DNA of 64,000 nucleotides. Source: Bolinopsis microptera. Lineage: Eukaryota; Ctenophora; Tentaculata; Lobata; Bolinopsidae. Of the stretch, positions 354 to 45,159 are shown in pieces. The position numbers and the translations under genes are program-made. The stretch lies in NCBI RefSeq assembly GCF_026151205.1, contig NC_087084.1, positions 124,001 to 188,000 on the forward strand, in the 5' to 3' direction. Below the pieces are notes generated by a model. The model searched no databases. It saw nothing but the letters and a program-made list of their open reading frames with translations, and was not told the origin of the DNA. The first letter of the stretch is position 1; each line of letters begins with the position of its first letter.

Positions 354-393
354 ACCATGTAACATGTATGCAACATGTAACCATAGTAACACT

Positions 394-671: not shown

Positions 672-791
672 ATTTCGTTGCTAATTTGTGCCTCTGTTAT
701 CAGCAGCGCTTATCATCTCAACAACTATCTCATACTCGCAGCTACAGCTTGTTTTACGGATACTGTACACTGTGTATAACTGATCAACGAT

Positions 792-3916: not shown

Positions 3917-4059
3917 GTTATGCAGCAATGCAGAGGGTTTTTGTCCGGAGAATACCTATATAACTAGTGATGGATGCGCTTGCAAAGCACAGGGATATTA
4001 CTTTGACGGAGTGTCTTGTATCGACATTAACGAGTGCGTGTTCCAGCCTTGCACTAACG
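3917..4059 (+). CDS. Exon encoding a calcium-binding EGF-like module (upstream exon of the giant repeat-protein gene)
   Basis: The reading frame gives LCSNAEGFCPENT, then GCACKAQGYYFDGVSC and IDINECVFQPCTN, i.e. the end of one EGF module followed by the DINEC start of a calcium-binding EGF. The proposed acceptor is TTTTCTCAG (AG at 3915-3916). The donor is GTAAGT at 4060, leaving a phase-1 end. Joining to the exon at 5472 creates DINEC-x4-C-TNG-HC-INLLGSYFCLC, the standard cbEGF cysteine spacing, which supports the splice. The start is less certain: an alternative acceptor at the internal GCAG (~3932) would give phase 1 at both ends. cbEGF modules occur in secreted or cell-surface proteins and bind calcium between adjacent modules. 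Earlier exons of this gene were not found. Confidence 0.85.
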
Positions 4060-4325
4060 GTAAGTGTCTTGTATCGACATTAACGAGTGCGTGTTCCAGC
4101 CTTGCACTAACGGTAAGTGTCTTGTATCTACATTAACGAGTGCGTGTTCCAGCCTTGCACTAACGGTAAGTGTCTTGTATCGACATTAACGAGTGCGTGT
4201 TCCAGCCTTGCACTAACGGTAAGTGTCTTGTATCGACATTAACGAGTGCGTGTTCCAGCCTTGCACTAACGGTAAGTGTCTTGTATCTACATTAACGAGT
4301 GCGTGTTCCAGCCTTGCACTAATGG
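4011..4325 (+). repeat. 53-bp tandem duplication of the EGF exon end with its splice donor, about 6 copies
   Basis: The last ~49 bases of the EGF exon (from GTGTCTTGTATCGACATT to TGCACTAACG) plus the donor GTAAGT repeat at a 53-base period to ~4325. Some copies differ by one base (TCGACATT versus TCTACATT), and the last ends AATGGAAAA, losing the donor. Because 53 is not a multiple of 3, using a downstream donor would shift the frame, so only the first donor gives the correct EGF join. Confidence 0.9.
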
Positions 4326-4461
4326 AAAAACGTAACTGATAATTATCTTCAATAAAGGTTTAAAAAACTTCATATGTATTATCAGGTCAATATTTGCCGG
4401 ACATTATTGCTTTTTATAGGACCGAGTATTAAATGCAGAAAAGGTATTTCAAACATGAATT

Positions 4462-5433
4462 AGCATACACTAACACACACTAACATACACTAACATACAC
4501 TAACATACACTAACATACACTAACATACACTAACATACACTAACATACTCTAACATACACTAACATACACTAACATACACCAACATACACTAACATACAC
4601 TAACATACACCAACATACACTAACATACACTAACATACACTAACATACTCTAACATACACTAACATACACTACCGATACACTAACATACACTAACATACA
4701 CTAACATACACTACCAATACACTAACATACACTAACATACTCTAACATACACTAACATACACTAACATACACTAACATACACTAACATACACTAACATAC
4801 ACTAACATACACCAACATACACTAACATACACTAACATACACTAACATACACTAACATACTCTAACATACACTAACATACACTACCAATACACTAACATA
4901 CACTAACATACACTAACATACACTAACATACACTAACATACACTAACATACACTAACATACACTAACATACACTAACATACACTAACATACACTAACATA
5001 CACTAACATACACTAACATACACTAACATACACTAACATACACCAACATACACTAACATACACTAACATACACTACCAATACACTAACATACACTAACAT
5101 ACACTAACATACACTAACATACTCTAACATACACTAACATACACTAACATACACTAACATACACTAACATACACTAACATACACTAACATACACTAACAT
5201 ACACTAACATACACTAACATACACTAACATACTCTAACATACACTAACATACACTACCAATACACTAACATACACTAACATACACTAACATACACTAACA
5301 TACACTAACATACACTAAAATACACTAACATACACTAACATACACTAACATACACTAACATACACTAACATACACTAACATACACTAACATACACTAACA
5401 TACACTAACATACACTAACATACACTAACATAC
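4462..5433. repeat. 10-bp satellite (ACACTAACAT)n, ~97 copies
   Basis: A nearly pure decamer tract of ~970 bp. Scattered variants are ACTC for ACAC, ACACCAACAT, and a larger recurrent variant ACACTACCGATACACT/ACACTACCAATACACT that recurs at irregular intervals. It lies in the intron between the two EGF exons. Confidence 0.95.
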
Positions 5434-5471
5434 GTATGTACAAAATTCAGCCTTACGATTTGATCACACAG

Positions 5472-5591
5472 GGCACTGTATAAATCTACTGGGAAGTTAT
5501 TTCTGCCTGTGTAGGGCCGGTTACCAATGGGACGGAACAACGTGCAGAGACATAAATGAGTGCTCGGAAAATCCACAGCTTTGCAATACAG
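5472..5591 (+). CDS. Exon encoding a complete phase 1-1 calcium-binding EGF unit
   Basis: A 120-bp exon between acceptor CACACAG (AG 5470-5471) and donor GTAATT (5592). It reads HCINLLGSYFCLC, then RAGYQWDGTTCRDINEC and SENPQLCNT, with a split glycine codon at each end. The 1-1 phase and 40-codon length are typical of shuffled EGF exons. Spliced to 6666 it yields DINEC-SENPQLC-NTGTC-RNRAGSYYCDC, again perfect cbEGF spacing. The DINEC motif gives the calcium-ligand residues. The exon is flanked by the decamer satellite and a LINE-bearing intron. Confidence 0.9.
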
Positions 5592-5715
5592 GTAATTGTA
5601 CCATAGTAACATTATTATTATTAAGAAACTGTTTACACCATTAAAATATTCAAAACCCCTAAAAGAAATCAAGTCATCCTAAAATGGTGATCAGTACAGA
5701 TCAAGACAGCTAGAG

Positions 5716-6303
5716 TTAAAATTTGTTTCTCCAAGCAACTCTATCATCGGCTAATATCTTAAGCTTATTAAGATCATTCAAAGAGTTAAGTTTTAAACCT
5801 CTACTGGTCAAATCATTCACAATAATCTTGAACAAATTCTTACGATGCGCACCGACGCGCCCTTTACAGTTTGTTGTGACAGCAAACTTTAACGCTAATG
5901 CAGCGGGGGAGTCATCAGCACTACGCAAGATATGACCTAGGAGCTTCCACCTTGCTTTAGGGACACGATCTGATAGCTTTACTGAGTTACATCTTAGGTA
6001 TAAGTTTGCATTGGATATTGTTCCATGAGGCCAATCAATGTTCAGTAATGATCTAAGGTGTTTTCTATGGCAAATGTCTAGTTTTTCTAGTGACTTTGCA
6101 GTAGGACACCAACTACTGCAATTGTACATGATGATTGATACAATTTGAGCTTCGTATACTGCTATCTTTCTGGTAACGGAGATATTCTGCTGAGACCAGA
6201 TCTTGGTGAACTTATAGAAGGCATTGTTCCCAGCAATGCATCGAGCAGCTATATCACTTTCACTACACAACAATAACCCAAGAATTAGTATTAGTATTAC
6301 CAT
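5716..6303 (-). pseudogene. C-terminal fragment of a LINE ORF2, antisense in the EGF-gene intron
   Basis: The 195-codon minus-strand frame contains AVYEAQIVSIIMYNCSSW, then KLDICHRKHLRSLLNIDWP, RWKLLGHILRS, and GRVGAHRKNLFKIIV with DDRVAWRNKF. This is the post-RT C-terminal region common in animal non-LTR elements ("...LGH.LR...", "...DR..WR"). The RT domain is absent, so it is a 5'-truncated copy. The peptide VGAHRKNLFKIIV also recurs, as a dispersed DNA fragment, at ~36.9 kb and ~44.35 kb. The initial Met-rich residues come from adjacent repeat DNA and are not native. Confidence 0.75.
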
Positions 6304-6348
6304 ATAATTAGAATTAGTATTAGTATTACCATATAAGGTAATTTTACC

Positions 6349-6490
6349 ATAGTAACACTACAATATAAGGTAATGTTACCATAGTAACACTACAATATAA
6401 GGTAATGTTACCATAGTAACACTACAATATAAGGTAATGTTACCATAGTAACACTACAATATAAGGTAATGTTACCATAGTAACACTACA
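6349..6490. repeat. 32-bp tandem repeat carrying an X-box-like palindrome
   Basis: About 4.5 copies of ACCATAGTAACACTACAATA followed by TAAGGTAATGTT (32-base period). Each junction forms the palindrome GTTACCATAGTAAC (starts 6375, 6407, 6439, 6471), which matches the RFX-factor X-box consensus (GTYNCC-AT-RGNAAC). Related single motifs lie near 343-420, 533, 3775, 5600, 6638, 7067 and 47865. Regulatory function is not shown by sequence alone. Confidence 0.85.
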
Positions 6491-6610
6491 ATTGCACAAA
6501 GGTTATACTGGTCGTTGTAATGACACTCTAATTGCACAAAGGTTATACTGGTCGTTGTAATGACACTCTAATTGCACAAAGGTTATACTGGTCGTTGTAA
6601 TGACACTCTA
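6491..6610 (+). repeat. 40-bp tandem triplication just upstream of the giant exon
   Basis: Three exact-looking copies of ATTGCACAAAGGTTATACTG plus GTCGTTGTAATGACACTCTA. One frame reads LHKGYTGRCNDTL, reminiscent of the end of an EGF module (GYTGRCND), so this may be a duplicated exon scrap, as at 4011-4325. The EGF reading is suggestive only, since the expected preceding cysteine is missing. Confidence 0.8.
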
Positions 6611-6665
6611 AGGTGGGAATTAACAAATCCCTCCTCAGTTACCATAGTAACAAATCCCTCCTCAG

Positions 6666-9600
6666 GGACGTGTCGAAACAGGGCGGGATCTTATTACTGT
6701 GACTGTGATGAGGACGCTGTCAACTGTATGGGCACCTGTATAACAGAGACTGAGTGCAATGTGTTCAAAGGAATCACAACGGAAGTAAAGAAATCCAGAC
6801 ACAAGAGAAATTTAGAAAACGACTACGAAACAATGTTAGTGAATGGTGGGTCGTATGAATCAACAGATTTCAATTTTATTGGTCAACGAAATGAGCTCAA
6901 TTCACTTGATTATGATTCTAGAAACCAAAAAGATGCTAAAATAGAAGTGGATTATATTTTTCCGCTAATAAAAGACAGAACTGATCGTAAAGACGAATTT
7001 GATGCACAGATTTTAAACAAATTCGGCCCTGAGAACACAATTGGACCACCCCTCAATCCCTCCTCAGTTACCATAGTAACACCGATAAACAATATTGAAA
7101 ATGATGTCACCGATAATACAATAAAACTGATAGACGATATTATCTCAAAACAAATTTATAATTTTCAGAATTATCTAAGTCCACAAGAAATAGCTGGTGT
7201 AGAATTCGGCACAACCGAAGGAAAAATTAGGTCGGATAGCAGTAAATTCTACGATGATGATTCTGCCATGGAATTCAAAGATGGAGAAACTGGTCAATTC
7301 TTTAGTGGTAATTCTGCTGAAGGATTTGAGATCAGTCTTGCTGGTGATGAATATGGTACAGCTGGCGGAATTGGCTTCGTAGATATGATGTCCGATGATA
7401 ATCAATTGTTCAATGGTGCTTCTGCCAAAGGATTCAAGATTAATGATGCTGGTGATGAATATGGTACACCTGGTGTAGTTGGCTTCGGAGATATGATTTC
7501 CAATGATAGTCAATTGTTTAATGATAATTCAGATGAAGGATTGGAGATCAGTGTTTCTGGTAATGAATATGGTACAGCTAGAGGAGTTGGCTTTGGAGAA
7601 ATGATGTCCGGTGGGAGTCAATTGTTCTTTGAGGATGGTGCTGGTGCTGAATACAGTACAGCTGGTGGAGTTGGCTTCGGAGATATGATGTCCGATGATG
7701 GTCAGTTCGTCAGTGGTGCTTCTGCTAAAACATTCACCGAGGATGGTGCTGGTGCTGAAAACAGTACAGCTGGTGGAGTTGGCTTCGCAGATAAGATGTC
7801 TGATGATGGTCAGTTCGTCAGTGGTGCTTCTGCAGAAATATTCACTGAGGATGGTGATAATGCTGAATACGGTACAGCTGGTGGAGTTGGCTTCGCAGAT
7901 ATGATGTCTGATGATGGTCAATTCTTTAGTGGTGCTTCAGCTGAAACATTCACTGAGGATGAAGCTGGTGATAAATATGATACAGCTGGTGGAGTTGGCT
8001 TCGGAAATATGATGTCCGATAATGGTCAGTTCTTCAGTGGTGCTTCAGCTGAAACATTCACTGAGGATGGTGCTAGTGCTGAATACAGTACAGCTGATGG
8101 AGTTGGCTTCGGAGATATGATGTCCGATGATGGTCAGTTCGTCAGTGGTGCTTCTGCTAAAACATTCACCGAGGATGGTGCTGGTGCTGAAAACAGTACA
8201 GCTGGTGGAGTTGGCTTCGCAGATAAGATGTCTGATGATGGTCAGTTCGTCAGTGGTGCTTCTGCAGAAATATTCACTGAGGATGGTGATAATGCTGAAT
8301 ACGGTACAGCTGGTGGAGTTGGCTTCGCAGATATGATGTCTGATGATGGTCAATTCTTTAGTGGTGCTTCAGCTGAAACATTCACTGAGGATGAAGCTGG
8401 TGATAAATATGATACAGCTGGTGGAGTTGGCTTCGGAGATATGATGTCCGATAATGGTCAGTTCTTCAGTGGTGCTTCAGCTGAAACATTCACTGAGGAT
8501 GGTGCTAGTGCTGAATACAGTACAGCTGATGGAGTTGGCTTCGGAGATATGATGTCCGATGATGGTCAGTTCGTCAGTGGTGCTTCTGCAGAAATATTCA
8601 CTGAGGATGGTGCTAGTGCTGAATACAGTACAGCTGGTGGAGTTGGCTTCGGAGATATGATGTCTGATAATGGTCAGTTCGTCAGTGGTGCTTCTGCAGA
8701 AATATTCACTGAGGATGGTGCTAGTGCTGAATACAGTACAGCTGATGGAGTTGGCTTCGGAAATATGATGTCTGATGATGGTCAGTTCGTCAGTGGTGCT
8801 TCTGCAGAAATATTCACTGAGGATGGTGCTAGTGCTGAATACAGTACAGCTGGTGGAGTTGGCTTCGGAGATATGATGTCCGATAATGGTCAGTTCGTCA
8901 GTGGTGCTTCTGCAGAAATATTCACTGAGGATGGTGCTATTGCTGAATACAGTACAGCTGGTGGAGTTGGCTTCGGAGATATGATGTCTGATGATGGTCA
9001 GTTCGTCAGTGGTGCTTCTGCAGAAATATTCACTGAGGATGGTGCTAATGCTGAATACGGTACAGCTGGTGGAGTTGGCTTCGGAGATATGATGTCCGAT
9101 AATGGTCAGTTCTTCAGTGGTGCTTCAGCTGAAACATTCACTGAGGATGGTGCTAGTGCTGAATACAGTACAGCTGATGGAGTTGGCTTCGGAGATATGA
9201 TGTCCGATGATGGTCAGTTCGTCAGTGGTGCTTCTGCAGAAATATTCACTGAGGATGGTGCTAGTGCTGAATACAGTACAGCTGGTGGAGTTGGCTTCGG
9301 AGATATGATGTCTGATAATGGTCAGTTCGTCAGTGGTGCTTCTGCAGAAATATTCACTGAGGATGGTGCTAGTGCTGAATACAGTACAGCTGATGGAGTT
9401 GGCTTCGGAAATACGATGTCTGATGATGGTCAGTTCGTCAGTGGTGCTTCTGCAGAAATATTCACTGAGGATGGTGCTAGTGCTGAATACAGTACAGCTG
9501 GTGGAGTTGGCTTCGGAGATATGATGTCCGATAATGGTCAGTTCGTCAGTGGTGCTTCTGCAGAAATATTCACTGAGGATGGTGCTATTGCTGAATACAG

Positions 9601-12600
9601 TACAGCTGGTGGAGTTGGCTTCGGAGATATGATGTCTGATGATGGTCAGTTCGTCAGTGGTGCTTCTGCAGAAATATTCACTGAGGATGGTGCTAGTGCT
9701 GAATACGGTACAGCTGGTGGAGTTGGCTTCGGAGATATGATGTCCGATAATGGTCAGTTCTTCAGTGGTGCTTCAGCTGAAACATTCACTGAGGATGGTG
9801 CTAGTGCTGAATACAGTACAGCTGATGGAGTTGGCTTCGGAGATATGATGTCCGATGATGGTCAGTTCGTCAGTGGTGCTTCTGCAGAAATATTCACTGA
9901 GGATGGTGCTAGTGCTGAATACAGTACAGCTGGTGGAGTTGGTTTCGGAGATATGATGTCCGATAATGGTCAGTTCGTCAGTGGTGCTTCTGCAGAAATA
10001 TTCACTGAGGATGGTGCTAGTGCTGAATACAGTACAGCTGATGGAGTTGGCTTCGGAAATATGATGTCTGATGATAGTCAGTTCGTCAGTGGTGCTTCTG
10101 CAGAAATATTCACTGAGGATGGTGCTAGTGCTGAATACAGTACAGCTGGTGGAGTTGGCTTCGGAGATATGATGTCTGATAATGGTCAGTTCGTCAGTGG
10201 TGCTTCTGCAGAAATATTCACTGAGGATGGTGCTAGTGCTGAATACAGTACAGCTGGTGGAGTTGGCTTCGGAGATATGATGTCTGATAATGGTCAGTTC
10301 GTCAGTGGTGCTTCTGCAGAAATATTCACTGAGGATGGTGCTAGTGCTGAATACAGTACAGCTGATGGAGTTGGCTTCGGAAATATGATGTCTGATGATG
10401 GTCAGTTCGTCAGTGGTGCTTCTGCAGAAATATTCACTGAGGATGGTGCTAGTGCTGAATACAGTACAGCTGGTGGAGTTGGCTTCGGAGATATGATGTC
10501 CGATAATGGTCAGTTCGTCAGTGGTGCTTCTGCAGAAATATTCACTGAGGATGGTGCTATTGCTGAATACAGTACAGCTGGTGGAGTTGGCTTCGGAGAT
10601 ATGATGTCTGATGATGGTCAGTTCGTCAGTGGTGCTTCTGCAGAAATATTCACTGAGGATGGTGCTAGTGCTGAATACGGTACAGCTGGTGGAGTTGGCT
10701 TCGGAGATATGATGTCCGATAATGGTCAGTTCTTCAGTGGTGCTTCTGCAGAAATATTCACTGAGGATGGTGCTAGTGCTGAATACAGTACAGCTGGTGG
10801 AGTTGGTTTCGGAGATATGATGTCCGATAATGGTCAGTTCGTCAGTGGTGCTTCTGCAGAAATATTCACTGAGGATGGTGCTAGTGCTGAATACAGTACA
10901 GCTGATGGAGTTGGCTTGGGAAATATGATGTCTGATGATGGTCAGTTCGTCAGTGGTGCTTCTGCAAAAATATTCACTGAGGATGGTGCTAGTGCTGAAT
11001 ACAGTACAGCTGGTGGAGTTGGCTTCGGAGATATGATGTCCGATAATGGTCAGTTCGTCAGTGGTGCTTCTGCAGAAATATTCACTGAGGATGGTGCTAT
11101 TGCTGAATACAGTACAGCTGGTGGAGTTGGCTTCGGAGATATGATGTCTGATGATGGTCAGTTCGTCAGTGGTGCTTCTGCAGAAATATTCACTGAGGAT
11201 GGTGCTAGTGCTGAATACGGTACAGCTGATGGAGTTGGCTTCGCAGATATGATGTCAGATGATGGTCAATTCTTTAGTTTTGCTTCAGCTGAAACATTCA
11301 CTGAGGATGAAGCTGGTGATAAATATGGTACAGCTGGTGGAGTTGGCTTCGGAGATATGATGTCCGGTGAGAGTCAATTGTTCTTTGAGGATGGTGCTAA
11401 TGCTGAATACTGTACAGCTGGTGGAGTTGGCTTCGCAGATATGATGTCTGATGATGGTAAATTCTTTAGTGGTGCTTCAGCTGAAACAATCATTGAGGAT
11501 GGTGCTAGTGCTGAATACGGTACAGCTGGTGCAGTTGGCTTCGCAGATATGATGTCTGATGATGGTCAATTCTTTAGTGGTGCTTCAGCTGAAACATTCA
11601 CTGAGGATGAAGCTGGTGATAAATATGGTACAGCTGGTGGAGTTGGCTTCGGAGATATGATGTCCGATAATGGTCAGTTCTTCAGTGGTGCTTCAGCTGA
11701 AACATTCACTGAGGATGGAGATAGTGCTGAATACAGTACAGCTGGTGGAGTTGGCTTCGGAGATATGATGTCCGATAATGGTCAGTTCGTCAGTGGTGCT
11801 TCTGCAGAAATATTCACTGAGGATGGTGCTATTGCTGAATACAGTACAGCTGGTGGAGTTGGCTTCGGAGATATGATGTCTGATGATGGTCAGTTCGTCA
11901 GTGGTGCTTCTGCCGAAACATTCACTGAGGATGGTGCTAGTGCTGAATACGGTACAGCTGGTGGAGTTGGCTTCGGAGATATGATATCCGATGATGGTCA
12001 ATTCTTAAGTGGTGCTTCTGCTGAAACATTCCCTGAGGATGAAGCTGGTGATAAATATGACACAGCTGGTGGAGTTGGCTTAGAAGATATGAGGTCCGAT
12101 GATGATCAATTCTTCAGTGGTGCTTCTGCCGAAGGATTCAAGATCATTGCTGCTGGTGATGAATATGATACAGCTGGTGGAGTTGGCTTCGGAGATATGA
12201 TGTCTGATCATGGTCAATTCTATAGTGGTGCTTTTGCTGAAACATTCACTGAGGATGGAGCTGGTGATGAATACAATTCAGCTGGTGGAGTTGGCTTCGG
12301 AGATATGATGTCTGATGATGGTCAATTCTTTAGTGGTGCTTCAGCTGAAACATTCACTGAGGATGAAGATGGTGATGGATACGCTACAGCCGGTGGAGTT
12401 GGCTTAGAAGATATGAAGTCCGATGATGATCAATTCTTCAGTGGTGCTTCTGCCGAAGGATTCAAGATCAGTGCTGCTGGTGATGAATATGGTACAGCTG
12501 CTGGAGTTGGCTTCGGAGATATGATGTCCGATCATGGTCAATTCGTCAGTGGTAATTCAGCCGAAGGATTCAAGATCAGAGCTGCTGGTGATGAATATGA

Positions 12601-15600
12601 TACAGCTGGTGGAGTTGGCTTCGGAGATATGATGTCTGATGATAGTCAATTCTTTAGTGGTGCTTCTGCTGAAACATTCACTGAGGATGGAGCTGGCGAT
12701 GGATATATTACGGATGGTGGAGTCGACTTCGGAGATATGATGTCCGATGATGGTCAATTCTTCATTGGTAATTCAGCTATAGAATTCAATATCAGTGCTG
12801 CTGGTGATGAATATGGTACAGCTGTTGGAGTTGGCTTCGGAGATATGATGTCTGATGATGGTCAATTCTTCAAAGGTGCTTCTGCTGAAAAATTCACTGA
12901 GGATGGAGCTGGTGATGGATACGCTACAGCTGGTGGAGTTGGCTTCGTAGATATGATGTCCGATGATGGTCAATTCTTCAAAGGTGCTTCTGCAGAAACA
13001 TTCACTGACGATGGAGCTGGTGATGGATACGCTACAGCTGGTGAAGTTGGCTTCGTAGATATGACGTCCGATGATGGTCAATTCTTCAAAGGTGGTTCTG
13101 CAGAAACATTCACTGACGATGGAGCTGGTGAAGGATACGCTACAGCTGGTGGAGTTAGCTTCGGAGATATGATGTCCGATGATGATCAATTCTTCAGTGG
13201 TGCTTCTGCCGAAGGATTTGAGATTAGTGTTGCTGCTAATGAATATGGTACAGCTGGTGGAGTTGGCTTCGGAGATATGATGTCTGATGATGGTCAATTG
13301 TTCAAAGGTGCTTTTGCTGAAGCAGTCACTGAGGATGGAGCTGGTGATGGATACGCTACAGCTGGTGGAGTTGGCTTCGTAGATATGATGTCCGATGATG
13401 GTCAATTCTTCAAAGGTGCTTCTGCAGAAACATTCACTGACGATGGAGCTGGTGATGGATACGCTACAGCTGGTGAAGTTGGCTTCGGATATATGATGTC
13501 CGATGATGGTCAATTCTTCAAAGGTGCTTCTGCCGAAGGATTCAAGATCAGTGCTGCTGGTGATGAATATGGTACAGCTGGTGGAGTTGGCTTCGGAGAT
13601 ATGATGTCCGATGATGGTCAATTCTTCAGTGGTAATTCAGCCGATGGATTCAAGATCATAGCTGCTGGTGATGAATATGATACAGCTGGTGGAGTTGGCT
13701 TCGTAGATATGATGTCCGATGATGGTCAATTCTTCAAAGGTGCTTCTGCAGAAACATTCACTGACGATGGAGCTGGTGATGGATACGCTACAGCTGGTGA
13801 AGTTGGCTTCGTAGATATGATGTCCGATGATGATCAATTCTTCAGTGGTGCTTCTGCCGAAGGATTCGAGATTATTGTTGCTGCTTATGAATATGGTACA
13901 GTTGGTGGAGTTGGCTTCGGAGATATGATGTCTGATGATGGTCAATTGTTCAAAGGTGCTTCTGCTGAAGCAGTCACTGAAGATGGAGGTGGTGATGGAA
14001 ACGCTACAGCTGGTGAAGTTGGCTTCAGAGATATGATGTCCGATGATGGTCAATTGTTCAAAGGTGCTTCTGCAGAATCATTCACTGAGGATGGAGCTGG
14101 TGATGCATACACTACATCTGGTGGAGTTAGCTTCGGAGATATGATGTCCGATGATGATCAATTTTTCAGTGGTGCTTCTGCCGAAGGATTCGAGATTAGT
14201 GTTGCTGCTGATGAATATGGTACAGCTGGTGTAGTTGGCTTCGGAGATATGATGTCTGATGATGGTCAATTGTTCAAAGGTGCTTCTGCTGAAGCAGTCA
14301 CTGAGGATGGAGCTGGTGATGGATACGCTACAGCTGGTGGAGTTGACTTCGGAGAAATGAAGTCCGATGATAATCAATTCTTTAGTGTTGCTTCTGCTAA
14401 AACATTCACTAAGGATGGAGCTGGTGATGGATACGCTACGGCTAGTGGAGTCGACTTCGGAGATATGATGTCCGATGATGATCAATTCGTCAGTGGTAAT
14501 TCAGCCGAAGGATTCAAGATCAGTGCTCCTGGTAATGAATATGGTACAGCTGGTGGAGTTGACTTCGGAGATATGATGTACGATGATGGTCAATTCTTCA
14601 AAGGTGCTTCTGCTGAAACATTCACTGAGGATGGAACTGGTGATGGATATGCTACAGCTGGTGGAGTTGGCTTCGAAGATATGATGTCCGATGATGGTCA
14701 ATTGTTCAGTGGTAATTCAGCCGAAGGATTCAAGATCAGTGCTGCTGGTGATGAATATGGTACAGCTGGTGGAGTTGGCTTCGGAGATATGATAACTGAT
14801 GATGGTCAATTCGTCAGTGGTAATTCAGCCGAAGGATTCAAGATCAGTGCTGCTGGTGATGAATATGATACAGCTGGAGGAGTTGGCTTCGTAGATATGT
14901 TGTCCGATCATGGTCAATTCTATAGTGGTGCTTCTGCTGAAATATTCACTAAGGATGGAGCTGGTGATGGATACGCTTCAGCCGGTGGAGTCGGCTTCGA
15001 AGATATGATGTCCGATGATGGTCAATTGTTCGAAGGTGCTTCTGCAGAATCATTCACTGAGGATGGAGCTGGTGATGGATACGCTACAGCTGGTGGAGTT
15101 GGCTTCGTAGATATGATGTCCGATGATGGTCAATTCTTCAAAGGTGCTTCTGCAGAAACATTCACTGACGATGGAGCTGGTGATGGATACGCTACAGCTG
15201 GTGAAGTCGGCTTCGGAGATATGATGTCTGATGATGGTCAATTGTTCAAAGGTGCTTCTGCAGAATCATTCACTGAGGATGGAGCTGGTGATGGATACGC
15301 TACAGCTGGTGGAGTTCGCTTCGTAGATATGATGTCCGATGATGGTCAATTCTTCAAAGGTGCTTCTGCTGAAACATTCGCTGAGGATGGAGCTGGTGAT
15401 GGATACGCTACAGCTGGTGCAGTTGGCCTCGAAGATATGATGTCCGATGATGATCAATTCTTCAGTGGTGCTTCTGCCGAAGGATTCAAGATCAGTGCTG
15501 CTGGTGATGAATATGGTACAGCTGGTGGAGTTGGCTTCGGAGATATGATAACTGATGATAGTCAATTCGTCAGTGGTAATTCAGCCGAAGGATTCAAGAT

Positions 15601-18600
15601 CAGTGCTGCTGGTGATGAATATGATACAGCTGGTGGAGTTGGCTTCGTAGATATGATGTCCGATCATGGTCAATTCTCAAAGTGTGCTTCTGCTGAAATA
15701 TTCACTAAGGATGGAGCTGGTGATGGATACGCTACAGCCGGTGCAGTCGGCTTCGAAGATATGATGTCCGATGATGGTCAATTCTTCGAGGTGCTTCTGC
15801 CAAAGGATTCAAGATCAGTGCTGCTGGTGATGGATATGCTACAGCTGGTGGAGTTGGCTTCGGAGATATGATGTCCAATGATGGTCAATTCTTTAAAGGT
15901 GTTTCTGCTGAAACATTCACTGAGGATGGAGCTGGTGATGGATACGCTACAGCTGGTGAGTTAGCTCCGAAGATATGATGTCTGATGATGATCAATTCTT
16001 CAGTGGTGCTTCTGCCGAAGGATTCAAGATCAGTGCTGCTGGTGATGAATATGGTACAGCTGGTGGAGTTGGCTTCGGAGATATGATGTCCGATGATGGT
16101 CAATTCTTCAAAGGTGCTTCTGCTGAAACATTCGTTGAGGATGGAGCTGGTGATGGATACGCTACAGCTGGTGCAGTTGGCTTTGAAGATATGATGCCTG
16201 ATGATGATCAATTCTTCAGTGGTGCTTCTGCCGAAGTATTCAAGAACAGTGCTGCTGGTGATGAATATGGTACAGCTGGTGGAGTTGGCTTCGGAGATTT
16301 AATGTCCAATGATGGTCAATTCTTCAAAGGTGTTTCTGCTGAAACATTCACTGAGGATGGAGCTGGTGATGGATACGCTACAGCTGGTGGAGTTGGCTTC
16401 GAAGATATGATGTCCGATGATGGTCAATTCTTCAGTGGTGCTTCTGCCGAAGGATTCAAGATCAGTGCTGCTGGTGATGAATATGGTACAGCTGGTGGAG
16501 TTGGCTTCGGAGATATGATTACCGATGATGGTCAATTCGTCAATGGTAATTCAGCCGAAGGATTCAAGATCAGTGCTGCTGGTGATGAATATGGTACAGC
16601 TGGTGGAGTTGGCTTCGGAGATATGATGTCCGATGATGGTCAATTCTTCAAAGGTGCTAAAGCTGAAACATTCGCTGAGGATGGAGCTGGTGATGGATAC
16701 GCTACAGCTGGTGCAGTTGGCTTCAAAGATATGATGTCCGATGATGATCAATTATTCAGTGGTGCTTCTGCCGAAGGATTCAAGATCAGTGCTGCTGGTG
16801 ATGAATATGGTACAGCTGGTGGAGTTGGCTTCGGAGATATGATAACCGATGATGGTCAATTCTTCAGTGGTAATTCAGTTGAAGGATTCAAGATCAGTGC
16901 TGCTGGTGATGAATATGGTACAGCTGGTGGAGTTGGCTTCGAAGATATGATGTCCGATGATGAACAATTATTCAGTGGTAATTCAGCCGAAGGATTCAAG
17001 ATCATTGCTGCTGCTGATGAATATGGTACAGCTGGTGAAGTTGGCTTCGGAGAAATGAAAACCGATGATGATCAATTATTCAGTGGTAATTCAGCCGAAG
17101 GATTCAAGATCAGTGCTGCTGGTGATGAATATGGTACAGCTGGTGGAGTTGGCTTCGGAGATATGATAACCGATGATGGTCAATTCGTCAGTGGTAATTC
17201 AGCCGAAGGATTCAAGATCAGTGCTGCTGGTGATGAATATGATACAGCTGGAGGAGTTGGCTTTGTAGATATGTTGTCCGATCATGGTCAATTCTATAGT
17301 GGTGCTTCTGCTGAAATATTCACTGAGGATGGAGCTGGTGATGGATACACTTCAGCCGGTGGAGTCGGCTTCGAAGATACGATGTCCGATGATGGTCAAT
17401 TGTTCGAAGGTGCTTCTGCACAATCATTCACTGAGGATGGAGCTGGTGATGGATACGCTACAGCTGGTGGAGTTCGCTTCGTAGATATGATGTCCGATGA
17501 TGGTCAATTCTTCAAAGGTGCTTCTGCAGAAACATTCACTGACGATGGAGCTGGTGATGGATACGCTACAGCTGGTGAAGTCGGCTTCGGAGATATGATG
17601 TCCGATGATGGTCAATTGTTCAAAGGTGCTTCTGCAGAATCATTCACTGAGGATGGAGCTGGTGATGGATACGCTACAGCTGGTGGAGTTGGCTTCGTAA
17701 ATATGATGTCCGATGATGGTCAATTCTTCAAAGGTGCTTCTGCTGAAACATTCGCTGAGGATGGAGCTGGTGATGGATACGCTACAGCTGGTGTAGTTGG
17801 CCTCGAAGATATGATGTCCGATGATGATCAATTCTTCAGTGGTGCTTCTGCCGAAGGATTCAAGATCAGTGCTGCTGGTGATGAATATGTTACAGCTGGT
17901 GGAGTTGGCTTCGGAGATATGATAACCGATGATGGTCAATTCGTCAGTGGTAATTCAGCCGAAGGATTTAAGATCAGTGCTGCTGGTGATGAATATGGTA
18001 CAGCTGGTGGAGTTGGCTTCGGAGATATGATGTCCGATGATGGACAATTCTTCAAAGATGCTTCTGCTGAAACATTCGCTGAGGATGGAGCTGGTGATGG
18101 ATACGTTACAGCTGGTGCAGTTGGCCTCGAAGATATGATGTCCGATGATGATCAATTCTTCAGTGGTGCTTCTGCCGAAGGATTCAAGATCAGTGCTGCT
18201 GGTGATGAATATGTTACAGCTGGTGGAGTTGGCTTCGGAGATATGATTACCGATGATGGTCAATTCGTCAGTGGTAATTCAGCCGAAGGATTCAAGATCA
18301 GTGCTGCTGGTGATGAATATGGTACAGCTGGTGGAGTTGGCTTCGGAGATATGATGTCCGATGATGGTCAATTCTTCAAAGATGCTTCTGCTGAAACATT
18401 CGCTGAGGATGGAGCTGGTGATGGATACGCTACAGCTGGTGCAGTTGGCTTTGAAGATATGATGCCTGATGATGATCAATTCTTCAGTGGTGCTTCTGCC
18501 AAAGGATTCAAGATCAGTGCTGCTGGTGATGAATATGGTACAGCTGGTGGAGTTGGCTTCGGAGATTTGATGTCCAATGATGGTCAATTCTTCAAAGGTG

Positions 18601-21600
18601 CTTCTGCAGAATCATTCACTGAGGATGGAGCTGGTGATGGATACGCTACAGCTGGTGGAGTTGGCTTCGTAGATATGATGTCCGATGATGGTCAATTCTT
18701 CAAAGGTGCTTCTGCTGAAACATTCGCTGAGGATGGAGCTGGTGATGGATACGCTACAGCTGGTGCAGTTGGCCTCGAAGATATGATGTCCGATGATGAT
18801 CAATTCTTCAGTGGTGCTTCTGCCGAAGGATTCAAGATCAGTGCTGCTGGTGATGAATATGTTACAGCTGGTGGAGTTGGCTCCGGAGATATGATTACCG
18901 ATGATGGTCAATTCGTCAGTGGTAATTCAGCCGAAGGATTCAAGATCAGTGCTGCTGGTGATGAATATGGTACAGCTGGTGGAGTTGGCTTCGGAGATAT
19001 GATGTCCGATGATGGTCAATTCTTCAAAGATGCTTCTGCTGAAACATTCGCTGAGGATGGAGCTGGTGATGGATACGCTACAGCTGGTGGAGTTAGCTCC
19101 GAAGATATGATGTCCGATGATGGTCAATTCGTCAATGGTAATTCAGCCGAAGGATTCAATATCAGTGCTGCTGGTGATGGATACGCTACAGCTGGTGCAG
19201 TTGGCTTTGAAGATATGATGCCTGATGATGATCAATTCGTCAATGGTAATTCAGCCGAAGGATTCAAGATCAGTGCTGCTGGTGATGGATACGCTACAGC
19301 TGGTGCAGTTGGCTTTGAAGATATGATGCCTGATGATGATCAATTCTTCAGTGGTGCTTCTGCCAAAGGATTCAAGATCAGTGCTGCTGGTGATGGATAC
19401 GCTACAGCTGGTGCAGTTGGCTTTGAAGATATGATGCCTGATGATGATCAATTCTTCAGTGGTGCTTCTGCCAAAGGATTCAAGATCAGTGCTGCTGGTG
19501 ATGAATATGGTACAGCTGGTGCAGTTGGCCTCGAAGATATGATGTCCGATGATGATCAATTCTTCAGTGGTGCTTCTGCCGAAGGATTCAAGATCAGTGC
19601 TGCTGGTGATGAATATGTTACAGCTGGTGGAGTTGGCTTCGGAGATATGATTACCGATGATGGTCAATTCGTCAGTGGTAATTCAGCCGAAGGATTCAAG
19701 ATCAGTGCTGCTGGTGATGAATATGGTACAGCTGGTGGAGTTGGCTTCGGAGATATGATGTCCGATGATGGTCAATTCTTCAAAGATGCTTCTGCTGAAA
19801 CATTCGCTGAGGATGGAGCTGGTGATGGATACGCTACAGCTGGTGCAGTTGGCCTCGAAGATATGATTACCGATGATGGTCAATTCTTCAGTGGTGCTTC
19901 TGCCGAAGGATTCAAGATCAGTGCTGCTGGTGATGAATATGGTACAGCTGGTGGAGTTGGCTTCGGAGATATGATTACCGATGATGGTCAATTCGTCAAT
20001 GGTAATTCAGCCGAAGGATTCAAGATCATTGCTGCTGCTGATGAATATGGTACAGCTGGTGAAGTTGGCTTCGGAGAAATGATAACCGATGATGATCAAT
20101 TATTCAGTGGTAATTCAGCCGAAGGATTCAAGATCAGTGCTGCTGGTGATGAATATGGTACAGCTGGTGGAGTTGGCTTCGGAGATATGATAACCGATGA
20201 TGGTCAATTCGTCAGTGGTAATTCAGCCGAAGGATTCAAGATCAGTGCTGCTGGTGATGAATATGATACAGCTGGAGGAGTTGGCTTCGTAGATATGTTG
20301 TCCGATCATGGTCAATTCTATAGTTGTGCTTCTGCTGAAATATTCACTGAGGATGGAGCTGGTGATGGATACACTTCAGCCGTTGGAGTCGGCTTCGAAG
20401 ATATGATGTCCGATGATGGTCAATTGTTCGAAGGTGCTTCTGCAGAATCATTCACTGAGGATGGAGCTGGTGATGGATACGCTACAGCTGGTGGAGTTCG
20501 CTTCGTAGATATGATGTCCGATGATGGTCAATTCTTCAAAGGTGATTCTGCAGAAACATTCACTGACGATGGAGCTGGTGATGGATACGCTACAGCTGGT
20601 GAAGTCGGCTTCGGAGATATGATGTCCGATGATGGTCAATTGTTCAAAGGTGCTTCTGCAGAATCATTCACTGAGGATGGAGTTGGTGATGGATACGCTA
20701 CAGCTGGTGGAGTTGGCTTCGTAGATATGATGTCCGATGATGGTCAATTCTTCAAAGGTGCTTCTGCTGAAACATTCGCTGAGGATGGAGCTGGTGATGC
20801 ATACTCTACAGCTGGTGCAGTTGGCCTCGAAGATATGATGTCCGATAATGATCAATTCTTCAGTGGTGCTTCTGCCGAAGGATTCAAGATCGGTGCTGCT
20901 GGTGATGAATATGGTACAGCTGGTGGAGTTGGCTTCGGAGATATGATTACCGATGATGGATAATTCGTCAATGGTAATTCAGCCGAAGGATTCAAGATCA
21001 GTGCTGCTGGTGATGAATATGGTACAGCTGGTGGAGTTGGCTTCAGAGATATGATGTCCGATGATGGTCAATTCTTCAAAGGTGCTAAAGCTGAAACATT
21101 CGCTGAGGATGGAGCTGGTGATGGATACGCTACAGCTGGTGCAGTTGGCTTCAAAGATATGATGACCGATGATGATCAATTCTTCAGTGGTGCTTCTGCC
21201 GAAGGATTCAAGATCAGTGCTGTTGGTGATGAATATGGTACAGCTGGTGGAGTTGGCTTCGGAGATATGATAACCGATGATGGTCAATTCTTCAGTGGTA
21301 ATTCAGCCGAAGGATTCAAGATCAGTGCTGCTGGTGATGAATATGGTACAGCTGGTGGAGTTGGCTTCGAAGATATGATGTCCGATGATGATCAATTATT
21401 CAGTGGTAATTCAGCCGAAGGATTCAAGATCATTGCTGCTGCTGATGAATATGGTACAGCTGGTGAAGTTGGCTTCGGAGAAGCCGAAGGATTCAAGATC
21501 AGTGCTGCTGGTGATGAATATGGTATAGCTGGTGGAGTTGGGTTCGAAGATATGATGTCCGATGATGGTCAATTCTTTAAAGGTGGTTCTACTGAAACAT

Positions 21601-24600
21601 TCGCTGAGGATGGAGCTGGTGATGGATACGCTACAGCTGGTGCAGTTGGCTTCGAAGATATGATGTCCGATGATGGTCAATTCGTCAGTGGTAATTCAGC
21701 CGAAGGATTCAAGATCAGTGCTGCTGGTAATGAATATGGAACAGCTGGTCGAGTTGGCTTCGGAGATATGATGTCCGATGATGGTCAATTCTTCAAAGGT
21801 GCTTCTGCTGAAACATTCATAGAAGATGGAGCTGGTGATGGATACGCTACAGCTGGTGGAGTTAGCTTCGAAGATATGATGTCTGATGATGATCAATTCT
21901 TCAGTGGTGCTTCTGCCGAAGGATTCAAGATCAGTGCTGCTGGTGATGAATATGGTACAGCTGGTGGAGTTGGCTTCGGAGATATGATAACCGATGATGG
22001 TCAATTCGTCAGTGGTAATTCAGCCGAAGGATTCAAGATCAGTGCTGCTGGTGATGAATATGGTACAGCTGGTGGAGTTGGCTTCGGAGATATGATGTCC
22101 GATGATGGTCAATTCTATAGTGGTGCTTCTGCTGAAATATTCACTGAGGATGGAGCTGGTGATGGATACGCTACAACTGGTGCAGTTGGCTTCGAAGATA
22201 TGATGTCCGATGATGATCAATTCTTCAGTGGTGCTTCTGCCGAAAGATTCAAGATCAGTACTGCTGGTGATGAATATGGTACAGCTGGTGGAGTTGGCTT
22301 CGGAGATATGATGTCCGATGATGGTCAATTCTTCAAAGGTGCTTCTGCTGAAACATTCGTTGAGGATGGAGCTGTTGATGGATACGCTGCAGCTGGTGCA
22401 GTTGGCTTCAGAGATATGATAACTGATGATAGTCAATACGTCAATGGTAATTCAGCCGAAGGATTCAAGATCAGTGCTGCTGGTGATGAATATGGTACAG
22501 CTGGTGGAGTTGGCTTCGGAAATATGATATCCAATGATGGTCAATTCTTCAAAGGTGCTTCTGCTAAAACATTCATAGAGGATGGAGCTGGTGATGGATA
22601 CGCTACAGCTGGTGGAGTTAGCTTCGAAGATATGATGTCCGATGATGATCAATTCTTCAGTGGTGCTTCTGCCGAAGGATTCAAGATCAGTGCTGCTGGT
22701 GATGAATTTGGTACAGCTGGTGGAGTTGGCTTCGGAGATATGATAACCGATGATGGTCAATTCGTCAGTGGTAATTCAGCTGAAGGATTCAAGATCAGTG
22801 CTGCTGGTGATGAATATGGTACAGCTGGTGGAGTTGGCTTCGGAGATATGATGTCCGATGATGGTCAATTCTATAGTGGTGCTTCTGCTGAATTATTCAC
22901 TGAGGATGGAGCTGGTGATGAATACGCTACAGCTGGTGGAGTTGGCTTCGGAAATATGATGTCCGATGATGGTCAATTCTTCAAAGGTGCTTCTGCTAAA
23001 ACATTCGCTGAGGATGGAGCTGGTGATGGATACGCTACAGCTGGTGTAGTTGGCTTCGAAGATATGATGTCCGATGATGATCAATACTTCAGTGGTGCTT
23101 CTGCCGAAAGATTTAAGATCAGTACTGCTGGTGATGAATATGGTACAGCTGGTGGAGTTGGCTTCGGAGATATGATTACCGATGATGGTCAATTCGTCAG
23201 TGGTAATTCAGCCGAAGGATTCAAGATCAGTGCTGCTGGTGATGAATATGGTACAGCTGGTGGAGTTGGATTCGGAGATATGATAACCGATGATGGTCAA
23301 TTTGTCAGTGGTAATTCAGCCGAAGGATTCAAGATCAGTGCTGCTGGTGATGAATATGGTACAGCTGGTGGAGTTGGCTTCGGAGATTTGATGTCCGATG
23401 ATGGTCAATTCTTTAGTGTTGCTTCTGCTGAAATATTCACTGAGGATGGAGCTGGTGATGGATACGCTACGGCTAGTGGAGTCGACTTCGGAGATATGAT
23501 GTCCGATCATGATCAATTCGTCAGTGGTAATTCAGCCGAAGGATTCAAGATCAGTGCTGCTGGTGATGAATATGGTACAGCTGTTGGAGTTGGCTTCGGA
23601 GATATGATGTCCGATGATGGTCAATTTTATAGTGGTGCTTCTGCTGAAATATTCACTGAGGATGGAGCTGGTGATGGATTCGCTACAGCTGGTGGAGTTG
23701 GCTTCAGAAATATGATGTCCGATGATGGTCAATTCTTCAAAGGTGCTTCTGCTGAAACATTCGCTGAGGATGGAGCTGGTGATGAATACGCTACAGCTGG
23801 TGCGGTTGGCTTCGAAGATATGATGTCCGATGATGATCAATTCTTCAGTGGTGCTTCTGCCGAAGGATTCAAGATCAGTGCTGCTGGTGATGAATATGGT
23901 ACAGCTGGTGGAGTTGGCTTCGGAGATATGATAACTGATGATGGTCAATTCGTCAGTGGTAATTCAGCCGAAGGATTCAAGATCAGTGCTGCTGGTGATG
24001 AATATGGTACATCTGGTGTAGTTGGCTTCGGAGATATGATGTCCGATGATGGTCAATTCTTTAGTGGTAATTCAGCCGAAGGATTCAAGATCAGTGCTGC
24101 TGGTAATGAATATGGTACAGCTGGTGGAGTTGGCTACGGAGATATGATGTCCGATGATGGTCAATTCTTCAAAGGTGCTTCTGCTGAAACATTTACTGAG
24201 GATGGAGCTGGTGATGGATACGCTACAGCTAGTGGAGTCGACTTCGGAGATATGATGTCCGATCATGATCAATTCGTCAGTGGTAATTCAGCGGAAGGAT
24301 TCAAGATCAGTGCTGCTGGTGATGAATATGGTACAGCTGTTGGAGTTGGCTTCGGAGATATGATGTCCGATGATGGTCAATTCTTCAGTGGTGCTTCTGC
24401 CAAAGGATTCAAGATCAGTGCTGCTGGTGATGAATATGGTACAGCTGGTGGAGTTGGCTTCGAAGATATGATGTCTGATGATGGTCAATTCTTCAAAAGT
24501 GCTTCTGCTGAAACATTCGCTAAGGATGGAGCTGGTGATGGATACGCTACAGCTGGTGCAGTTGGCTTCGAAGATATGATGTCCGATGATGATCAATTCT

Positions 24601-27600
24601 TCAGTGGTGCTTCTGCCGAAGGATTCAAGATCAGTGCTGCTGGTGATGAATATGGTACAGTTGGTGGAGTTGGCTTCGGAGATATGATTACCGATGATGG
24701 TCAATTCGTCAGTGGTAATTCAGCCGAAGGATTCAAGATCAGTGCTGCTGGTGATGAATATGGTACATCTGGTGTAGTTGGCTTCGGAGATATGATGTCC
24801 GATGATGGTCAATTCTTCAGTGGTAATTCAGCCGAAGGATTCAAGATCAGTGCTGCTGGTAATGAATATGGTACAGCTGGTGGAATTAGCTACGGAGATA
24901 TGATGCCCGATGATGGTCAATTCTTTAAAGGTGCTTCTGCTGAAACATTCACTGAGGATGGAGCTGGTGATGGATACGCTACGGCTAGTGGAGTCGACTT
25001 CGGAGATATGATGTCCGATCATGATCAATTCGTCAGTGGTAATTCAGCCGAAGGATTCAAGATCAGTGCTGCTGGTGATGAATATGGTACAGCTGTTGGA
25101 GTTGGCTTCGGAGATATGATGTCCGATGATGGTCAATTTTATAGTGGTGATTCTGCTGAAATATTCACTGAGGATAGAGCTGGTGATGGATACGCTACAG
25201 CTAGTGGAGTTGGCTTTGGAAATATGATGTCTGATGATGGTCAATTCTTCAAAGGTGCTTCTGCTGAAACATTCGCTGAGGATGGAGCTGGTGATGAATA
25301 CGCTACAGCTGGTGCAGTTGGCTTCGAAGATATGATGTCCGATGATGATCAATTCTTCAGTGGTGCTTCTGCCGAAGGATTCAAGATCAGTGCTGCTGGT
25401 GATGAATATGGTACAGCTGGTGGAGTTGGCTTCGGAGATATAATTACCGATGATGGTCAATTCGTCAGTGGTAATTCAGCCGAAGGCTTCAAGATCAGTG
25501 CTGCTGGTGATGAATATGGTACAGCTGGTGGAGTTGGCTTCGGAGATATGATAACCGATGATGGTCAATTCGTCAGTGGTAATTCAGCCGAAGGATTCAA
25601 GATCAGTGCTGCTGGTGATGAATATGGTACAGCTGGTGGAGTTGGCTTCGGAGATATGATGTCCTATGATGGTCAATTCTATAGTGGTGCTTCTGCTGAA
25701 ATATTCACTGAGGATGGAGCTGGTGATGGATACGCTACAGCTGGTGGAGTTAGCTCCGAAGATATGAAGTCCGATGATGATCAATTCTTCAGTGGTGCTT
25801 CTGCCGAAGGATTCAAGATCAGTGCTGCTGGTGATGAATATGGAACAGCTGGTGGAGTTGGTTTCGGAGATATGATGTCCGATGATGGTCAATTCTATAG
25901 TGGTGCTTCTGCTGAAATATTCACTGAGGATATAGCTGGTGATGGATACGTTACAGCTGGTGGAGTTGGCTTCGGAGATATGATGTCCGATGATGGTCAA
26001 TTCTTCAAAGGTGCTTCTGCTGAAACATTCGCTGAGGATGGAGCTGGTGATGAATACGCTACAGCTGGTGCAGTTGGCTTCGAAGATATGATGTCCGATG
26101 ATGATCAATTCTTCAGTGGTGCTTCTGCCGAAGGATTCAAGATCAGTGCTGCTGGTGATGAATATGGTACATCTGGTGTAGTTGGCTTCGGAGATATAAT
26201 TACCGATGATGGTCAATTCTTCAGTGGTAATTCAGCCGAAGGATTCAAGATCAGTGCTGCTGGTAATGAATATGGTACAGCTGGTGGAATTAGCTACGGA
26301 GATATAATGCCCGATGATGGTCAATTCGTCAGTGGTAATTCAACCGAAGGATTCAAGATCAGTGCTGCTGGTGATGAATATGGTACAGCTGGTGGAGTTG
26401 GCTTCGGAGATATGATGTCCGATGATGGTCAATTCTATAGTGGTGCTTCTGCTGAAATATTCACTGAGGATTGAGCTGGTGATGGATACGCTACAGCTGG
26501 TGGAGTTAGCTCCGAAGATATGAAGTCCGATGATGATCAATTCTTCAGTGGTGCTTCTGCCGAAGGATTCAAGATCAGTGCTGCTGGTGATGAATATGGT
26601 ACAGCTGGTGGAGTTGGCTTCGGAGATATGATTACCGATGATGGTCAATTCGTCAGTGGTAATTCAGCCGAAGGATTCAAGATCAGTGCTGCTGGTGATG
26701 AATATGGTACAGCTGGTGGAGTTGGCTTCGGAGATATGATGTCCGATGATGGTCAATTCTATAGTGGTGCTTCTGCTGAAATATTCACTGAGGATATAGC
26801 TGGTGATGGATACGCTACAGCTGGTGGAGTTGGCTTTGGAAATATGATGTCCGATGATGGTCAATTCTTCAAAGGTGCTTCTGCTGAAGGATTCAAGATC
26901 AGTGCTGCTGGTGATGAATATGGTACAGCTGTTGGAGTTGGCTTCGGAGATATGATGTCCGATGATGGTCAATTTTATAGTGGTGCTTCTGCTGAAATAT
27001 TCACTGAGGATGGAGCTGGTGATGGATACGCTACAGCTAGTGGAGTTGGCTTTGGAAATATGATGTCTGATGATGGTCAATTCTTCAAAGGTGCTTCTGC
27101 TGAAACATTCGCTAAGGATGGAGCTGGTGATGGATACGCTACAGCTGGTGCAGTTGGCTTCGAAGATATGATGTCCGATGATGATCAATTCTTCAGTGGT
27201 GCTTCTGCCGAAGGATTCAAGATCAGTGCTGCTGGTGATGAATATGGTACAGCTGGTGGAGTTGGCTTCGGAGATATGATTACCGATGATGGTCAATTCG
27301 TCAGTGGTAATTCAGCCGAAGGATTCAAGATCAGTGCTGCTGGTGATGAATATGGTACAGCTGGTGGAGTTGGCTTCGGAGATATGATAACCGATGATGG
27401 TCAATTCGTCAGTGGTAATTCAGCCGAAGGATTCAAGATCAGTGCTGCTGGTGATGAATATGGTACAGCTGGTGGAGTTGGCTTCGGAGATATGATGTCC
27501 GATGATGGTCAATTCTATAGTGGTGCTTCTGCTGAAATATTCACTGAGGATGGAGCTGGTGATGGATACGCTACAGCTGGTGGAGTTAGCTTCGAAGATA

Positions 27601-28456
27601 TGAAGTCCGATGATGATCAATTCTTCAGTGGTGCTTCTGCCGAAGGATTCAAGATCAGTGCTGCTGGTGATGAATATGGTACAGCTGGTGGAGTTGGCTT
27701 CGGAGATATGATAACCGATGATGGTCAATTCGTCAGTGGTAATTCAGCCGAAGGATTCAAGATCAGTGCTGCTGGTGATGAATATGGTACAGCTGGTGGA
27801 GTTGGCTTCGGAGATATGATGTCCGATGATGGTCAATTCTTCAGTGGTGCTTCTGCTGAAGGATTCAAGAGGATGGAGCTGGTGATGAATACGCTACAGC
27901 TGGTGGAGTTGGCTTCGGAGATATGATGTCCGATGATGGTCAATTCTTCAGTGGTAATTCAGCCGAAGGATTCAAGATCAGTGCTGCTGGTGATGAATAT
28001 GGTACAGCTGGTGTAGTTGGCTTCGGAGATATGATGTCCGATGATGGTCAATTCTTCAGTGGTAATTCAGCCGAAGGATTCAAGATCAGTGCTGCTGGTG
28101 ATGAATATGGTACATCTGGTGTAGTTGGCTTCGGAGATATGATGTCCGATGATGGTCAATTCTTCAGTGGTAATTCAGCCGAAGGATTCAAGATCAGTGC
28201 TGCTGGTGATGAATATGGTACAGCTGGTGGAGTTGGCTTCGGATATATGATGTCCGATGATGGTCAATTCTTAAGTGGTGCCTCTGCCGAAGGATTTGAT
28301 GGTATTAAATCTAGTGTTTACGATGTTGAATTTACGGCTGATGAAGACTCTGTCAATTCCAAACTTTTCAGTGATATATACTACAGTAGAGCATCTTCTG
28401 TTGGCTCCACTTGTAAGGAACTGAAACGGCAATATGAAGAATTATGTGGGGCTTGA
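6666..28456 (+). CDS. Giant last exon: EGF end, furin-like site, ~195 x 36-residue acidic repeats, cysteine-containing tail
   Basis: The exon starts after TCCCTCCTCAG (AG 6664-6665) in phase 1 and ends at TGA 28454-28456. Its order is: TCRNRAGSYYCDCDEDAVNC (EGF end, ~30 residues); KKSRHKR, a furin-type site; a ~170-residue acidic linker; then from ~7304 to ~28300 a 36-residue repeat of the type GASAEGFKISAAGDEYGTAG followed by GVGFGDMMSDDGQFFS; finally a unique tail with VGSTCKELKRQYEELCGA. Counted by eye, each unit carries a net charge of about -5 to -9, and units are almost free of Cys, Pro and Trp. With the EGF modules this points to a very large (~7,300-residue) secreted matrix, adhesive or mineral-associated protein; that role is inference. 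Open frames are 6666-15871, 15975-20963, 21051-26474, 26520-27926 and 27923-28456. Breaks are one-base deletions near 15788, 15957 and 27868 and stops at 20961 (TAA) and 26472 (TGA). The three deletions together restore the frame used by the natural tail. I do not recognise the repeat as a known family. Confidence 0.85.
7304..28300 (+). repeat. 108-bp coding minisatellite, ~195 units, two main subtypes
   Basis: The unit is 108 bp (36 codons), kept in register except for a few shortened units (near 7615 and 11375, ~8 codons missing; near 21480, ~13 missing). Subtype 1 has GNSAEGFKISAAGDEYGTAG. Subtype 2 has GASAETFTEDGAGDGYATAG. A third form, EIFTEDGASAEYSTA with SDNGQFVS, dominates 8.5-11.2 kb. 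Higher-order repetition is visible: the stretch from ~7650 is repeated 432 bp (four units) later. Near 19140-19500 subtype-1 starts are joined to subtype-2 ends, showing exchange between units. Confidence 0.95.
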
Positions 28457-41398: not shown

Positions 41399-41413
41399 AG
41401 ATCACACACACTA

Positions 41414-45115: not shown

Positions 45116-45159
45116 CTGATGTTAAATACATACAACCACTCAAATTATGTTCATCAAAT

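Follow-up and report, generated by a model that had tools for sequence, protein, structure and literature searches.

What does a genome encode when exons for calcium-binding EGF modules lead, in a single reading frame, into nearly two hundred acidic 36-residue repeats? This question is raised by a locus of the ctenophore Bolinopsis microptera, in a window of 64,000 nucleotides (assembly GCF_026151205.1, contig NC_087084.1, positions 124,001 to 188,000), the coordinates of which are used below unless contig positions are specified. The most likely reading is a lineage-specific gene for a presumably secreted polyanionic polymer; in its more specific form, we put it at about even chances that this is a ctenophore gene, restricted to its lineage and lacking its 5' end, the extracellular product of which combines EGF modules with the polyanionic repeat.

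The EGF part consists of the following exons:

3917-4059, + strand, first exon seen, an incomplete EGF-like module (five Cys) followed by the beginning of a second module
5472-5591, + strand, EGF exon, phase 1 at either end
6666-6784, + strand, start of the last exon, closing the EGF part (translation, Pfam)

The first of these begins at a phase-1 acceptor (3917) and is followed by the donor GTAAGT. GT/AG sites link 3917-4059, 5472-5591 and the sequence from 6666 onward in phase 1, yielding consecutive EGF-like modules. The joined exons score 46 bits against cEGF (Pfam cut-off 26.6) and 43.4 bits against EGF_CA (cut-off 27), so that by profile the product belongs to the calcium-binding EGF proteins; a previous reading of the locus from sequence only had anticipated the correct calcium-binding EGF spacing upon exon joining. 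With the modular extracellular proteins of this group (PF07645, PF12662), the gene shares EGF_CA and cEGF modules and phase-1 exons, whereas the repeat, the linker and the tail are its own. The nearest EGF loci in the same genome, on contigs C4 and C9, continue into apparently Ig-like exons and lack the acidic repeat. These two loci, which are among the nearest EGF matches outside the acidic-repeat gene, are near-duplicates of each other, and their Ig-like exons were recognized by eye. A 53-bp tandem duplication (5.9 copies, 4010-4322) covers the last part of exon 3917-4059 with its donor, which therefore occurs in several successive copies.

Because the exon at 3917-4059 begins within a module, an upstream part of the gene is probably missing. 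Neither a scan for frames dense in Cys nor an EGF profile of our own making identified a further EGF exon in the 50 kb upstream, and no convincing signal peptide or 5' exon was found upstream of 3917; a crude signal-peptide scan of contig positions 94001-127917 yielded a single weak candidate, at contig position 106671. Pfam matches in the three forward frames of contig positions 94001-124000 and window positions 1-3916 were to DUF6451, GIY-YIG and arylsulfatase, the latter overlapped by a phosphodiesterase match, along with a sub-threshold match to FLYWCH. The arylsulfatase gene lies on the same strand (contig C13, the 16.35-Mb contig to which the window belongs, approximately 99119-100556; Pfam Sulfatase, E = 2.1e-66; Sulfatase_C, E = 1.6e-28).

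Downstream of the EGF modules, the last exon comprises a linker, the repeat array and a short tail:

6785-7300, + strand, non-repeat linker, a single copy in the genome, open in the coding frame only
6797-6808, + strand, RHKR, furin-type motif (sequence and translation)
7301-28300, + strand, about 195 acidic units of 36 amino acids (108 bp), from anchor spacing
28265-28456, + strand, unique C-terminal tail with two Cys, stop codon at 28454-28456
28617-28622 and 28657-28662, + strand, two AATAAA poly(A)-signal-like hexamers (sequence reading)

One frame runs from the EGF modules through the linker into the units. The splice sites, the Pfam matches and the charge thus support the proposed architecture, with EGF exons and a polyanionic repeat in one frame and a furin-type motif between them. 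We take RHKR to be such a motif (R-X-K/R-R) and a putative cleavage site. It had been described as lying just before the repeats; the motif is indeed there, but this placement is loose, given that some 170 codons of non-repeat linker separate it from the first clear unit. The linker (172 codons) contains no stops in its own frame, whereas every alternative frame has between 9 and 19; in a search of the genome, it matched itself and otherwise produced five matches with E-values of 0.49 or worse, and it has no match in Pfam or NCBIfam. Similarly, the tail matches only itself in the genome and showed no convincing relationship to Pfam, NCBIfam or PDB families. The short sequence TTACCATAGTAACA is present in eight copies on the + strand (531, 6344, 6376, 6408, 6440, 6472, 6639 and 7068). 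The copy at 6639 adjoins the acceptor of the last exon, that at 7068 is in frame within the coding linker, and these two have flanking bases in common.

The array contains 194 unit anchors (the first at 7370, the last at 28232), in agreement with the roughly 195 copies originally counted. Among the 193 anchor spacings, 187 are 108 bp, two are 84 bp, one is 177 bp and three are 107 bp; the 84-bp and 177-bp spacings preserve the frame, whereas the 107-bp ones do not. All unit analyses were performed on the 187 full-length units, with seven others excluded; 152 of the 187 have distinct sequences. The net charge per full unit averages -6.0 (range -9 to -2, n = 187), so the strongly negative character of the repeat is confirmed, over a range somewhat wider than the -5 to -9 initially given. 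The repeat had also been reported to lack Cys, Pro and Trp: across 6,732 positions, Trp is absent, and Cys (2) and Pro (10) are nearly but not wholly so. Under a motif rule that we set ourselves, the units fall into type A (103 units, mean charge -6.3) and type B (84 units, mean charge -5.6). Every full unit between 7670 and 12073 is of type A, the two types are mixed beyond 12073, and two diverged units form the 5' edge of the array. All 44 genomic occurrences of the 27-base unit core are at this locus, and no match to the repeat was found elsewhere in the genome (264.65 Mb, 232 contigs).

The repeat also lacks a known family, as the sequence-only reading had suspected: searches of Pfam, NCBIfam and PDB by sequence gave no convincing match. 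No relatives of the linker and the repeat were detected in a protein database at the limited length ranges searched, in prokaryote genomes (two peptide patterns and tblastn), or among viral contigs and PDB sequences. For one glutamate-receptor frame from the same genome, included as a control, the protein database contains a relative at 97% identity; near kin of one or more genes of the organism are thus represented there, which lends some weight to the missing relatives of the repeat, although an orthologue that is fragmented or far longer could have escaped this search. The three best PDB matches of the control frame are to Mnemiopsis ML032222a, which did not appear among the 60 matches listed for another receptor frame. 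No relative from the prokaryote searches links the repeat to the bacterial Gly/Asp-rich beta-solenoid and amyloid repeats (RTX, trimeric autotransporter heads, FapC/CsgA). The trimeric autotransporter head profile PF15401 reached 30.8 bits (cut-off 25.8) when summed over 1,667 amino acids, with no single stretch passing; of two 180-residue repeat pieces, one scored 14 bits against the same cut-off and the other had no listed match. The RTX nonapeptide profile HemolysinCabind was absent among the Pfam matches listed for these two pieces at E-values up to 10, an absence weakened by the HMMER filters, which remove most matches above E of about 0.1.

Mucins, silks and glue proteins are lineage-specific secreted repeat polymers. 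The present array resembles them in being large, repetitive, of biased composition and confined to a single locus, and a comparable role is suggested by analogy; it differs from them in sequence, with no match, and in not being rich in Pro, Ser and Thr. Gel-forming mucins, in particular, combine Pro/Thr/Ser-rich repeats with VWD domains. The present repeat contains 10 Pro among 6,732 positions, 9.5% Ser and 5.3% Thr, and no VWD domain was detected by Pfam in the gene parts searched, all downstream of the missing 5' end; accordingly, we did not assign it to the gel-forming mucins. Known animal adhesive proteins and the colloblast candidates of ctenophores are a further comparison. A published study (PMC6278862) reports that such colloblast candidates are not enriched in low-complexity sequence, which counts against the polymer-gene reading, and we found nothing that ties the acidic-repeat gene to colloblasts.

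As assembled, the array-bearing frame is interrupted by five breaks, three -1 frameshifts and two in-frame stops:

15788-15898, + strand, two -1 frameshifts in the successive units 15746 and 15853 (spacing, frames)
20961-20963, + strand, in-frame TAA in one unit, in a column otherwise occupied by Gln (one Lys)
26472-26474, + strand, in-frame TGA in one unit (frames)
27868, + strand, -1 frameshift at an apparent junction of B-type and A-type unit sequence

The stop-to-stop frames extend over 6572-15871, 15960-20963, 20964-26474 and 26475-27926, with the first terminated by the stop at 15869-15871 and the final stretch, to the stop at 28454-28456, in a different phase. The first open run of exon 3 comprises 3,067 codons, the last approximately 27 of them already frameshifted, and includes 78 unit spacings; its translation as a whole has a net charge of -520 and a mass of about 311 kDa. 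Hence the earlier figure of over 7,000 residues for the last exon does not hold for the assembled sequence; 7,262 codons are obtained if the breaks are ignored. The assembled allele may be truncated.

These breaks bring up the main, serious rival, which we consider possible but doubtful, namely, that the locus is a recently dead or dying gene, once encoding a secreted repeat protein, in which transposons surround what used to be the 5' part, now lost, and stops and frameshifts are gathering. The five breaks themselves, each limited to one unit, and the failure of the EGF profile to find a 5' exon within 50 kb upstream are as expected for such a gene. Moreover, two of the breaks have the appearance of true mutations and not of sequencing errors: the stop in unit 20928, a unit that differs from its nearest one by two neighboring bases, and the frameshift at 27868, where A and B sequence meet. 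Against this explanation, the splice sites, the linker, the tail and the first 3,067 codons are all intact.

The changes among the units bear on the same issue. An open frame in an array with a unit length divisible by three is, by itself, weak evidence of coding. However, stops occur in 2 of the 152 distinct units in the coding frame, the corresponding counts for the five alternative frames being 65, 148, 149, 151 and 152, and a codon score trained on 8 receptor frames from the same genome is +0.40 to +0.42 for the array in the coding frame and at most +0.08 in any other; for the linker (+0.16) and the tail (+0.19), too, the own frame scores best. Codon changes were classed along a minimum spanning tree of the 152 distinct units, with 33 multi-difference codon pairs excluded. 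The resulting 421 single-base changes comprise 322 nonsynonymous (N), 97 synonymous (S) and 2 stop changes, compared with neutral expectations of N 325, S 81 and stop 14.9 under the polarized base spectrum and N 306, S 104 and stop 11.3 under the unpolarized one. Amino acids thus change at a near-neutral rate (N/S versus neutral, P = 0.10) and stops are depleted (P about 5e-5; 2 versus 6.2 expected with each distinct event counted once, P = 0.053), all P values being rough because exchange between units violates the tree assumption. Gains of Cys are likewise rare (2 versus 10.7 expected; distinct events, 1 versus 4.5, P = 0.061), as are those of Arg (11 versus 22.3; distinct events, 7 versus 9.4, P = 0.28) and Thr (13 versus 23.2), and gains of Ala are in excess (25 versus 11.5). 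Acidity is not visibly guarded by selection, given the excess of Lys gains (27 versus 15.0 expected) and of +2 charge changes (17 versus 8.4).

Near-neutral amino acids combined with rare stops indicate that the frame was probably kept open during most of the array's past. This depletion is alike on either side of the first break, with no stops before it compared with 7.7 expected and 2 after it compared with 8.3, and thus argues against a dying gene and suggests that the distal array was translated through most of its history, so that the breaks would be recent or, in part, assembly errors. The near-neutral amino-acid changes fit a dying gene, as do the rare codon variants, 88 in number, of which 73 are N, 13 S and 2 stop (neutral fractions 0.75, 0.22 and 0.03). 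On the youngest tree edges, with one or two differences, stops are near neutral (2 versus 3.3 expected), which counts against the polymer-gene reading.

A second rival takes the gene to be intact and giant, with some 7,260 codons in the last exon, and attributes all five breaks to assembly errors in a repeat that short reads could not polish. In its favor, each of the three frameshifts is the loss of a single base, in two cases arguably within a two-base run, and genes outside the array look clean: among the 32 matches to receptor domains in the rest of the genome, just one has a stop inside. Long reads with Illumina polishing, the procedure reported for a Bolinopsis assembly (PMC10232365), also fit, if that is the same assembly. 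But the two stops are substitutions, one frameshift falls at an unusual junction, and clean genes elsewhere say nothing about repeats, so we regard this explanation as unlikely. A minisatellite expansion in the tail of a gene, the repeat being functionless and its frame merely following from a unit length that is a multiple of three, is highly improbable: other expansions crowd the locus (41 bp x 19, 53 bp x 5.9 and 10 bp x 96.5 within 5 kb) and amino acids change near-neutrally, but stops and Cys are depleted, the codon score of the coding frame is far above that of the others, and both the diverged first units and the unique tail are in the expected frames.

Under the preferred reading, a gene for an extracellular EGF and polyanionic-repeat protein, the product would consist, in order, of calcium-binding EGF modules, the furin-type motif, the unique linker, the domain of 36-residue repeats and, last, a short tail that contains Cys. 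We infer that the gene is expressed and its product enters the secretory pathway, where the EGF part would fold via disulfides and calcium and might serve in sorting or anchoring. Cleavage at RHKR would free a chain that carries, for every 36 residues, some six negative charges and could bind calcium and water and work as a gel, glue or matrix polymer. Unequal exchange would lengthen or shorten the array, with the open frame mattering and the exact sequence hardly so. In the assembled haplotype, the chain would stop after about 78 units; with the first break within the last exon, the message would escape nonsense-mediated decay by the usual rule, and a product exceeding 3,000 residues would still be possible. 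The fullest version of this scheme, an EGF-tethered, furin-released, ctenophore-specific chain, at most some 7,000 residues long, that forms a calcium-bound beta-solenoid or functional-amyloid-like fibre in a gel or glue (mesoglea, mucus or colloblast adhesive), with its length varying between individuals by unequal exchange, appears quite unlikely as a whole. If expressed, a single-copy orphan repeat gene of this size would be a concrete candidate for one of the poorly characterized extracellular materials of comb jellies (glue, mucus, mesoglea), and the array is a test case of a coding minisatellite in which the frame is apparently kept while the amino acids drift almost freely.

Structure prediction, proposed at the outset to separate a beta-solenoid from disorder, gave a divided result. 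With 34 five-unit segments supplied as an alignment, one of five AlphaFold2 models showed regular short strands at a mean pLDDT of 70.8, and the remaining four reached 55.2, 31.5, 27.7 and 27.5. A beta-solenoid fold of the acidic repeat is thus an unsafe prediction, being seen in one model of five and subject to a reported bias, in that AlphaFold2 produces confident yet unrealistic solenoids from perfect repeats (PMC11795689). By charge and hydropathy, the repeat falls at the border between order and disorder (0.474 versus 0.477 and 0.471 versus 0.470), and the linker with the first units, folded without an alignment, gave a pLDDT of 40.8.

The surroundings of the gene are rich in repeats and mobile elements. 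The 41-bp x 19 array (2806-3585) lies upstream of the first exon and the 10-bp x 96.5 array (4464-5433) in the first intron. Retroelement frames are located at 29386-31352, 33156-34923, 37983-40339 and 57183-59210; RVT_1 exceeded the Pfam cut-off in three pieces tested and was weak at 33156-34235, and the element at 57183-59210 has an open frame of 675 amino acids with DUF6451 just under the cut-off. Two frames that appear near-identical by eye (41243-42106 and 55018-55671) resemble integrase-side pieces of LTR elements, although Pfam gave no integrase match for 41243-42106. Farther along are TAG x 373 (45159-46277), a contig-internal telomere-like array of GTTAGG x 36.7 (50620-50839), and one 28-bp satellite that forms two arrays (51472-54950 and 61271-64000). 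Elsewhere in the genome, the 32 receptor-domain matches mentioned above are to glutamate-receptor domains; several are single open frames of about 900 amino acids, and local clusters are found on contigs C3, C6, C8 and C12.
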